64,000 nt of DNA from Natrinema salaciae (GTDB taxonomy: Archaea; Halobacteriota; Halobacteria; Halobacteriales; Natrialbaceae): assembly GCF_900110865.1 (NCBI RefSeq), contig NZ_FOFD01000004.1:62001-126000 (forward strand), written 5' to 3'. Shown piece by piece: positions 9,804 to 35,279 of this stretch. The translations under genes were made by a program, and so were the position numbers. The first letter of the stretch is position 1. Each line of letters opens with the position of its first letter. The notes under the pieces are model-generated. The model was given only the letters and a program-made list of their open reading frames with translations, was not told the DNA's origin and did not search any database.

Positions 9804-9950
9804 CTACGTCAGGAGGCCCCCGTCCTCGTCGATCACGAGTTCGCAGTCGTCACAGAGCCACCAGCCCACGAGCGGATCGCGGGCGGGGAGTTCGGCACCA
9901 CACTCGGGGCACCGTTTCGACTCGCGGGCTCGAGGGCCAGTCCGGGTCAT
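9804..9950 (-). CDS. Small zinc-ribbon protein (48 aa)
   Basis: A 48-residue protein with two zinc-binding pairs, CPECG and CDDC, separated by 18 residues that include a GWW. This is the pattern of haloarchaeal small 'CPxCG-related' zinc-finger proteins, many of which are expressed but uncharacterised. Its ATG overlaps the TGA of the repeat-containing upstream reading frame (ATGA at 9947-9950), implying translational coupling if that frame is real. The cysteine pattern and acid-rich tail (VIDEDGG) argue that it is a true gene despite its length. Its function is unknown. Confidence 0.7.
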   Translation of the reverse strand: MTRTGPRARESKRCPECGAELPARDPLVGWWLCDDCELVIDEDGGLLT

Positions 9951-10522
9951 CCGTCACCCCCTCGAGCGGCGAGGTCGGTCTCCTGCGAGCGCTCGGTCGT
10001 GGAAGGGGCGGCCAGCGTCGGATAGAGGCGGGCGCGGGTGTGGAACGGTTCGTGGCCGCGTACGCGACGGGCAATGGCCTCGAGACAGTCGCGCTGGACG
10101 GCGGTGCGGTCGGTCCAGGCGGTGCTCCCGTCGGCTCGGAGAGCCGAGCAGGATTGCTTCGTCTCACTCGGCTCACCACCGTCAGAACGAAGTTCTGACG
10201 AGGATCGCCTCGGTCCACTCGGCTCACCGCCGTCAGAACGAAGTTCTGACGAGGATCGCCTCGATCCACTCGGCTCACCGACGTCGAAATTTCGTTCCGA
10301 CGAGGATCGCCTCGGTCCACTCGGCTCACCGCCGTCGAAACTCGGACGATCTACAAGTGATGCGTCTCCTCGTGCGAGGCGTTCGGAATTCGTCCGCTTG
10401 TCTTCGAGCATGGCTTCCGAAGGGCGATTACGGTAGTTTCTCGCGGAACCAGTGTTCCGGAACCGATCCATTATTTCGGGACCTGTGAGAGTCGGGTCCG
10501 CGTCTCGCTCTTCACCCCGCAT
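9947..10522 (-). CDS. Hypothetical protein containing four 17-residue tandem repeats
   Basis: A 191-residue reading frame from ATG 10522 (a TTG lies at 10531). A minus-strand TATA (atatatt near 10556) is placed for either start. The N-terminal part includes MLEDKRTNSERLARGDASLVD. Residues about 63-130 consist of four 17-residue repeats of the type LRSDGGEPSGPRRSSSE, encoded by four 51-bp DNA repeats. The C-terminal part has RTAVQRDCLEAIARRV. Five of six frames are open across this GC-rich repeat, so openness alone proves nothing. The promoter and the ATGA link to the zinc-ribbon gene support this frame. No known family recognised; the region might be a structured non-coding element instead. 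Confidence 0.45.
   Translation of the reverse strand: MRGEERDADPTLTGPEIMDRFRNTGSARNYRNRPSEAMLEDKRTNSERLARGDASLVDRPSFDGGEPSGPRRSSSERNFDVGEPSGSRRSSSELRSDGGEPSGPRRSSSELRSDGGEPSETKQSCSALRADGSTAWTDRTAVQRDCLEAIARRVRGHEPFHTRARLYPTLAAPSTTERSQETDLAARGGDG
10165..10355. repeat. Four 51-bp direct repeats carrying nested palindromes
   Basis: Units begin with CACTCGGCTCACC at 10165, 10216, 10267 and 10318, exactly 51 bp apart; the last is partial. Units 1 and 2 carry the palindrome GTCAGAACGAAGTTCTGAC (10181-10199 and 10232-10250), two 8-bp arms around GAA; unit 3 has a decayed version. Each of the first three units ends in CGAGGATCGCCTCG, a 5-bp stem with a 4-nt loop (the third C of the second unit's tail is followed by A instead of G). 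51 is a multiple of 3, so all frames keep their phase through the array. There are no unique spacers, so this is not a CRISPR array. Confidence 0.9.
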
Positions 10523-10636
10523 ATCGATCAATATCGTAATAAGTGTTGACCTAATATATGGTCAGTATGGCACATAATCTGTCCAAGATTCGAAAATACC
10601 GGTGACATTATACGAGTACTACCAGTGATTGGTATC

Positions 10637-10930
10637 GTGCGTCATCGGCCTCGTTGGATGAGTAAGAACGACGATACGATCCTGGAGTTCTTAGCAGAGA
10701 CAGGTGCCGCCTTCTCGAAACGCGGCCTCGAGGTGAATTTCGAACGGCGTGATATCGAGGTCTCCTACTCCACGATCAAACGGCGGATACAGAGACTCGA
10801 GGCGGCGGGGCTGACCGAATGCGTCGAAGACAGCGGGGGATACTACGAGATAACGGATTTCGGTGAGCGGTACCTGCATGGCGATCTCGACGATGACGAA
10901 CTGGCCGAGCTGAAAGGACGGTCGCCGTAA
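10637..10930 (+). CDS. Winged-helix DNA-binding protein
   Basis: A 97-residue single-domain winged-helix regulator starting VRHRPRWMSKNDDTILEFLAE, followed by a recognition-helix region SYSTIKRRIQRLEAAGL and a wing plus C-terminal YYEITDFGERYLHGDLD. Haloarchaeal regulators of this class, often near mobile or variable loci, typically begin R-x-x-W-M. GTG 10637 is preferred because a good TATA (ttata, 10608-10612) lies exactly 27 nt upstream; the internal ATG at 10658 and GTG 10625 are alternatives. It is divergent from the repeat-containing gene, and both TATA boxes lie in the shared 114-bp spacer, so it may regulate that locus. Confidence 0.8.
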   Translation: MRHRPRWMSKNDDTILEFLAETGAAFSKRGLEVNFERRDIEVSYSTIKRRIQRLEAAGLTECVEDSGGYYEITDFGERYLHGDLDDDELAELKGRSP

Positions 10931-11273
10931 CCTGGCGTCGCTTCGGTGAGGTTGCGTCGCGGATCGAGGTTCGCTAGCGCAGTGAACTCGAGCGACACGA
11001 AGACGGAGTCAAGCGTTCTGCTCGGCCGGCAACGCGGAATTTCCACACCCCCCAACCGATTCGCCCGGTCATGCTTCCCTCGCTCACCCCTCGCGCAGCG
11101 TTGCGCCGCGGTTCACCGCGGCACGGCGCGTGCCACCGCACCGGCACAGCGCGCACCACCGCACCCGGTCGCTCGGTCCAGCGGAGTGAGTCGCTCGTGG
11201 AGTCGTGCCGAGAGGCCCGTGCCTCGAGATCAAAGGATAGTCTAAAGGCAAACGGCTCCATCGTGGTGGACAT
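10931..11273. other. 343-bp non-coding stretch with two overlapping GC hairpins
   Basis: No credible gene was found. Two strong hairpins overlap: CCGCGGT-TC-ACCGCGG (11106-11121) and GGCACG-GCG-CGTGCC (11120-11134). They share two bases, so they could form alternatives in RNA. The right end carries the promoter of the deacylase gene (tctaaagg near 11246, 28 nt before ATG 11274), placing the hairpins upstream of that transcription start. Confidence 0.5.
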
Positions 11274-34378: not shown

Positions 34379-35101
34379 TCAGACCTCCTCGAGCGGGTCG
34401 ATCAGCGACGGCTCGTCCGTCGACGGATCGTTCACCGCCGTCGAGACCGGGTCGGCCCGCATCCCGTCGGCTGGAGCCGGCTCGAGCACCTCGCGACCGG
34501 CGTCGCCAGAGAGCCACCGCCGCTCGGCGTCGGGCTCGAGGATCACGGCCATTCTGTGGTGCAGGTCCGAAACGAGCGCGTTCGGCTCGGTCGTGACGAC
34601 GGTAAACGTCTCGAGCGGGCCGCTCTCGGCCTCGTCGTCGACGCCGCCACCGAACGCGGCGAGTCCCGTCTGGGTCGTCTCCGGTTCCCATCGTTCCCAG
34701 AGCCCGGCCATCGCGAACACTCGATCGTCCTCGAAGGTGACTCGATAGGGTCGTTTTCCATCCTCGGTCTCGACCCACTCGTAGAAGCCGTCCGCCGGAA
34801 CGAGACATCTCCGTCGCTCGTACGCCTCGCGAAAGCTCGGCTTCTCGTCGACGGACTCCGCTCTCGCGTTGATCAGCCCGCCGCTGTCGTCGTCGGCCCA
34901 CGACGGCACCAGCCCCCACTCGAGGCGTCGGAACGTCTCCGGGTCCTCGTTCGTGATCACCGGCAGCTCCTGTCCGGGGGCCATGTTGTATCGCGGCGTG
35001 AACGCGCCGTCCGATTCGGCACCGGACTCGTCCCGGAAGCGGGCGTCGAACCGCGACTCGAGATCGTCCTGCTCGACGACGAGCGTGTAGCGACCGCACA
35101 T
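34379..35101 (-). CDS. SRAP-domain protein (HMCES/YedK-type, abasic-site DNA-protein crosslinker)
   Basis: A 240-residue SOS-response-associated peptidase domain protein. Starting at ATG 35101 exposes MCGRYTL, in which Cys2 becomes the N-terminal residue that bonds covalently with abasic sites in single-stranded DNA. Other family motifs are RYNMAPGQELPVI, LEWGLVPSWA, NARAESVDEKPSFREAYERRRCLVPADGFYEW and FTVVTTEPN...LHHRMAVIL, including the conserved Asn, Glu and His. The 27 in-frame codons upstream are rejected because they would bury Cys2. The last 20-30 residues are an acidic extension. It acts in DNA-damage tolerance. Confidence 0.92.
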   Translation of the reverse strand: MCGRYTLVVEQDDLESRFDARFRDESGAESDGAFTPRYNMAPGQELPVITNEDPETFRRLEWGLVPSWADDDSGGLINARAESVDEKPSFREAYERRRCLVPADGFYEWVETEDGKRPYRVTFEDDRVFAMAGLWERWEPETTQTGLAAFGGGVDDEAESGPLETFTVVTTEPNALVSDLHHRMAVILEPDAERRWLSGDAGREVLEPAPADGMRADPVSTAVNDPSTDEPSLIDPLEEV

Positions 35102-35279
35102 ACTCGACCGTCGGGCCGCCGGACCAAAGGGTTGTCCGGTCGCGATCGCAGACGACGCCTCGAGCCGCCGCCGAGCGGACACCGATCTACAGTCAGTATG
35201 CGGTCCTTACGCGGCACCGATCGACCGGTACGGGCCCCGTTACGATAGTCGTTCCCGGCGGAGTCGATAGCGGGTCATC

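Follow-up and report, generated by a model that had tools for sequence, protein, structure and literature searches.

Rickettsia palindromic elements (RPEs) are palindromic repeats that lie in frame in many conserved protein genes and are tolerated there (Ogata et al. 2000; PMC2229807). They have a length of 105-146 bp and terminal inverted repeats, and they are also present in intergenic regions and RNA genes (PMC2229807). Stand-alone in-frame coding palindromes are reported for Methanocaldococcus jannaschii and Wolbachia (cited in PMC2996958). In PARCEL, palindromic coding units form tandem repeat domains; these were reportedly lacking in all archaeal genomes known at that time (PMC2996958). 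REP sequences are short dispersed palindromes that are defined as mostly extragenic (PMC3733652, PMC12306157). The PATE and SMR of Haloquadratum walsbyi are short mobile repeats without a transposase; PATEs have near-terminal palindromes and are tied to transposons of the IS605 type, and the passages on them describe no in-frame coding units (PMC3119063).

We analysed a window of 64,000 nt from Natrinema salaciae that harbors a tandem array of 51-bp units. The array is one site of a family of palindromic elements dispersed across haloarchaea. We are confident that it consists of four tandem copies of a protein-coding palindromic element, a 51-bp double hairpin that is probably tolerated in frame. 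This is based on the dispersal of the family, the covariation of the hairpins, the fixation of the reading frame, alleles that differ by exactly 51 bp, and the presence of four units in the window versus zero at a syntenic locus.

The closest known kind is the RPE, with the reported Methanocaldococcus case as an archaeal precedent by its description. Like RPE-type elements in general, the haloarchaeal units form a dispersed palindromic family, are found in frame in unrelated conserved protein genes, and have empty orthologues with exact boundaries. They differ from RPEs by their length of 51 bp, their two small internal triloop hairpins and their exact 17-codon tandem arrays, and in the scans that were run they were present only in haloarchaeal or Euryarchaeota-labelled records. 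Tandem palindromic coding units are shared with PARCEL, but most haloarchaeal hosts carry a single unit and are housekeeping enzymes. Unlike REP sequences, the element lies in coding frame at 88/90 loci, and unlike REP/RAYT systems it shows no correlation with Y1 transposases and is present in genomes without detected Y1_Tnp. The coding frame and the lack of a Y1 correlation also separate it from PATEs as described in those passages (PMC3119063). A search of the open literature (subscription journals were outside its scope) yielded no description of a haloarchaeal coding palindrome family, and the present family, shorter than the Rickettsia elements and with a double hairpin, is seemingly undescribed there.

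Tandem Repeats Finder (TRF) detected the 51-bp array in the window at 10150-10336 with 3.7 copies and a score of 274, which was far above the score of every other array in the window. In register, four minus-strand units span 10124-10336, and each unit comprises 60 nt including the GACGGYGGT ends that are common to neighbouring units. This agreed with the initial annotation, which had described four 51-bp repeats. Unit 1 (10277-10336) is the outermost and lies 5' in the open reading frame (ORF); its second hairpin is decayed. Both central units have inverted arms and were matched by R1, the covariance model described below: unit 2 (10226-10285; hairpins at 10258-10274 and 10231-10251) with 81.3 bits and an E-value of 4e-17, and unit 3 (10175-10234; hairpins at 10207-10223 and 10180-10200) with 83.2 bits and an E-value of 1.4e-17. 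Unit 4 (10124-10183) is the innermost, is diverged at its 3' end and reached 62.5 bits. A palindrome with 8-bp arms had been assigned to every repeat. Its exact form, GTCAGAACGAAGTTCTGAC, is present only at 10181-10199 and 10232-10250, i.e., in the two central units; it has changes in a third copy and is missing from the outermost one. The two middle units are near-identical, which supports the proposed recent expansion of the array. Since other tandem arrays of two or three units exist in host genes (L154, 1491-1550; L051, 1497-1556; L026, 1497-1556), tandem growth is not peculiar to the window. A separate 23-bp tandem pair was seen at 11119-11165 of the window, in the intergenic region ahead of an AstE-like gene.

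The four units lie in the linker of a minus-strand ORF (9947-10531) whose relatives have a DLTAFQRDCLEA motif. By inspection its sequence resembles that of PadR-like proteins; it had no match in Pfam or NCBIfam. Downstream follows a minus-strand gene for a zinc-ribbon protein of 48 amino acids (9804-9950), the start of which overlaps the stop of the ORF as ATGA, and a winged-helix gene (10625-10930, plus strand; HTH_12, PF08461) is oriented divergently. Both features had been noted before and were seen here as well. The zinc-ribbon gene and the host ORF are kept together in many paralogous modules, and the whole module of zinc-ribbon, PadR-like and divergent winged-helix genes (9804-10930 in the window; L002-L023) is present in several copies per genome throughout the genus. 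In paralogous PadR-like proteins the motif DLTAFQRDCLEAVAR is followed by more than 70 residues. The copy in the window retains the motif; because it is shortened and different after the motif relative to its paralogues, the gene may be decaying. The linker ahead of the motif comprises 17 residues without a unit, 34 residues with one unit and 85 residues in the window, which exceeds the empty linker by exactly four units (4 x 17 codons). The syntenic locus of Natrinema gelatinilyticum, where the AstE-like gene is 91% and the winged-helix gene 79% identical, has zero units, and units are also missing from several paralogous modules.

The R1 model was built from 36 units with the two-hairpin structure. 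About 0.86 Mb of the source genome was sampled in stretches and the remainder was searched with models. R1 detected 11 units at 7 loci of this genome with E < 1e-5; elsewhere in this genome a unit lies, e.g., inside a sugar ABC permease gene and an Lhr-type helicase gene. R1 matches were found in 27/31 genomes, so that the 51-bp unit, which the initial annotation had proposed to search for in relatives, is not unique to this genome. In a phylum-wide sample 5/7 genomes of the same order had R1 matches and 0/53 other, non-haloarchaeal genomes did. An exact-pattern scan over 84,980 species returned haloarchaeal records and one MAG labelled only as Euryarchaeota. The element was also present on annotated plasmids, inside ctaD and inside an acyl-CoA ligase gene; phage records gave no match to it. 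A reversed-sequence nhmmer control yielded zero matches, which was odd, and it was set aside as evidence. Copies within a genome were no closer (similarity 0.639) than copies from different genomes (0.642), which gives no indication that a master copy has recently been amplified. Some filled sites (RecJ-like, Amt-PII) are common to several species, and a large part of the family is therefore old. The ValRS insert of the source genome (L102, 1501-1560) belongs to a diverged subfamily and reached only 39.5 bits, a hint that further subfamilies escape R1.

We determined the host frame at 90 loci by a codon-usage score of the flanks. The unit matched the register of the host frame on both flanks at 57/90 loci and on at least one flank at 88/90 loci; the loci in register on one flank only were largely near gene ends. 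The span of the unit (60, 57, 63 or 66 nt) was a multiple of three in 89/90 loci. The host proteins of the 90 loci fall into 41 families, and a sign test over families gave 39/41 in frame against a chance level of 1/6 (P about 3e-28); counting either flank lifts the chance level to about 1/3 and leaves the conclusion unchanged. The two loci L043 and L173 had no supported in-frame host. At L040 and L043 (1500-1559 in both) the element lies in an apparent 3' fragment of ftsY, in the conserved NGG|AAISIA loop, and this fragment is seemingly outside any full gene. As read from the sequence, the unit encodes the peptide DGGEPSxxRRSSSELRSDGG, and each copy would add 17 amino acids to the host protein.

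Conserved Pfam families could be named for 19/20 scanned hosts. The hosts include ValRS, MutS, ArgH, Amt-PII, RecJ-like DHH, SRAP, M20, Lhr helicase and a V-ATPase subunit; the Pfam families were Amt plus P-II, DHH, AAA, argininosuccinate lyase, DEAD helicase, AMP-binding, M20, SRAP, tRNA synthetase, Cys/Met PLP enzyme, Mrp antiporter, MutS, V-ATPase subunit I and others. Many units separate two Pfam domains or belong to a tail, and a position within a domain was seen for SRAP, M20, Lhr and the PLP enzyme. In the array itself, the minus-strand ORF runs through the units in frame, in agreement with the codon phase that the initial annotation had reported. Its suggestion of a repeat protein holds insofar as the units are part of the coding frame; they are inserted units of the mobile type and do not constitute a repeat domain of the protein's own. 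Four of six frames were open through the array, and not five as stated before.

Empty and filled alleles differed by exactly 51 bp for ValRS, Lhr and SRAP. The ValRS region comprises 720 nt in the source genome versus 669 nt in 17 congeners, and the Lhr region 567 nt in three genomes versus 516 nt in congeners that align through the site. For SRAP two genomes are filled, with 51 additional bp after GACGG; at the DNA level the insert follows GAAGACGG and extends from TGAGG to GACGGTGG. The SRAP gene of the window (34427-35113, minus strand) is an empty allele of the site that is filled in these two congeners. At the ValRS site gain is more likely than loss, since the insert is private to the source genome within the sample.

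The unit consists of two triloop hairpins, formed by columns 12-18/22-28 and 35-43/47-55. The alignment used for the covariation counts was ungapped and comprised 60-nt units, and the counts were therefore not fitted to the structure of R1. For 36 units, two-sided changes affected 67 pair cells versus 20.7 in shuffles, and the covariation score was 0.291 versus 0.103, with 0/500 shuffles as high. Both hairpins covaried well beyond shuffles and slid controls. The second dyad of the initial annotation, GAGGCGATCCTC, showed no covariation when tested as a helix, and the hairpin of columns 12-18/22-28 was supported instead. The pair 42/48, at third codon positions, was Watson-Crick in 73/80 units (shuffles: mean 25.3, maximum 38) and used the combinations G-C, A-T, C-G and T-A. 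The pair 39/51, also at third codon positions, was Watson-Crick in 72/80 units versus 48.6 after shuffling, and both pairs stayed complementary through several base combinations. Since several of the paired changes affect third codon positions, pairing is kept at the level of the nucleic acid and not by the protein. When each host family was represented by one member, conservation exceeded 94% at several synonymous sites, e.g., the third base of a CGA Arg codon; such conservation across unrelated hosts points to common descent of the DNA. The two central pairs of the first hairpin are often G.A/A.G, and tandem mismatches of this kind are stable.

Units are bounded by GACGGYGG at both ends and sit where the codons read Asp-Gly (GACGG) or Asp-Asp (GACGAC). 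Due to this placement and the length of 51 bp, 17 codons are added and the frame of the host is kept. The element is probably tolerated because its peptide is short and hydrophilic and mostly located in linkers, tails or loops. No terminal inverted repeat of the kind that marks MITEs was seen in the 51-bp unit, and no transposition event and no transposase were identified for the element. Either a target duplication or homology could account for the common GACGGYGG ends, and together with the Asp-Gly/Asp-Asp sites these ends suggest target-directed insertion or recombination by microhomology. Such targeting could explain both the frame fixation (GAC GGN codons) and the tandem growth. We propose that the element spreads as DNA at GACGG-type sites, possibly by a recombinase that recognises hairpins or driven by microhomology, that slippage, or else unequal recombination among the units, may have enlarged the array, and that the element would mostly be a tolerated selfish or neutral insert. 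Tentatively, it may represent an undescribed archaeal mobile family that brings fixed 17-residue modules into essential genes, with its two adjacent hairpins and a GACGG-type target recognised by a non-Y1 factor, and whose sites are still gained and lost among close Natrinema species.

A different mode of movement would be mobilisation in trans by a Y1 transposase (IS200/IS605 type), as for a REP-like or PATE-like element, with coding insertion as a by-product. This concerns movement only and is compatible with a coding palindrome. The small size of the hairpins, an insertion point 3' of a short target, the lack of clear inverted termini and the presence of Y1_Tnp in 22/31 genomes would fit, and IS605-related PATEs are known from Haloquadratum (PMC3119063). 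We consider it unlikely: the counts of Y1_Tnp and of elements were not correlated (rho 0.015), genomes with 4-20 matches, one of them with 20, lacked Y1_Tnp, and the elements are overwhelmingly within genes, unlike REPs.

Somewhat less likely still is a selected role of the hairpins in the mRNA or the chromosome, such as stability, pausing or tuning of translation. The covariation of both hairpins across old, diverged copies and z-scores of about -1.8 to -2.8 for the DNA folding energy are consistent with such a function. The earlier proposal of a structured RNA gains from the strong covariation, which fits DNA or RNA alike. However, the presence of the unit varies among close species in one gene, Rfam gave no match at this locus, and the palindromes could also persist as a requirement for spread.

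The initial annotation had also considered a multi-site operator bound by the divergent regulator. In this reading, the winged-helix protein would control the zinc-ribbon operon through the palindromes. The palindromic units are indeed located about 300 bp inside a divergent regulator pair, but they lie within codons downstream of the promoter region, they are absent from several paralogous modules and from the syntenic N. gelatinilyticum locus despite its similar winged-helix protein, and they are present in dozens of unrelated genes (ValRS, MutS, ArgH and many others), as a rule without such a neighbouring regulator. An operator is therefore very improbable. Even less credible is convergence under selection for a hydrophilic linker rich in Asp, Ser and Arg without any mobile element. 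In its favour, the peptide is hydrophilic and a linker, loop or tail is the location of many copies. Against it, unrelated hosts have conserved third codon positions that covary as complementary pairs, and the insertions are exactly 51 bp.

The array is thus best explained by tandem copies of a dispersed coding palindromic element. In-frame coding palindromes are a rare route by which selfish DNA alters proteins directly, and they are best known so far from obligate intracellular Rickettsia. Haloarchaea are culturable and partly genetically tractable, and they offer clean pairs of empty and filled alleles in essential enzymes. The family makes the movement of such elements, their tolerance by proteins and the building of new linkers testable. 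For annotation, insertions of 17 residues in proteins of haloarchaea, as well as repeat ORFs like that of the window, may reflect the element rather than the signal of a protein family.
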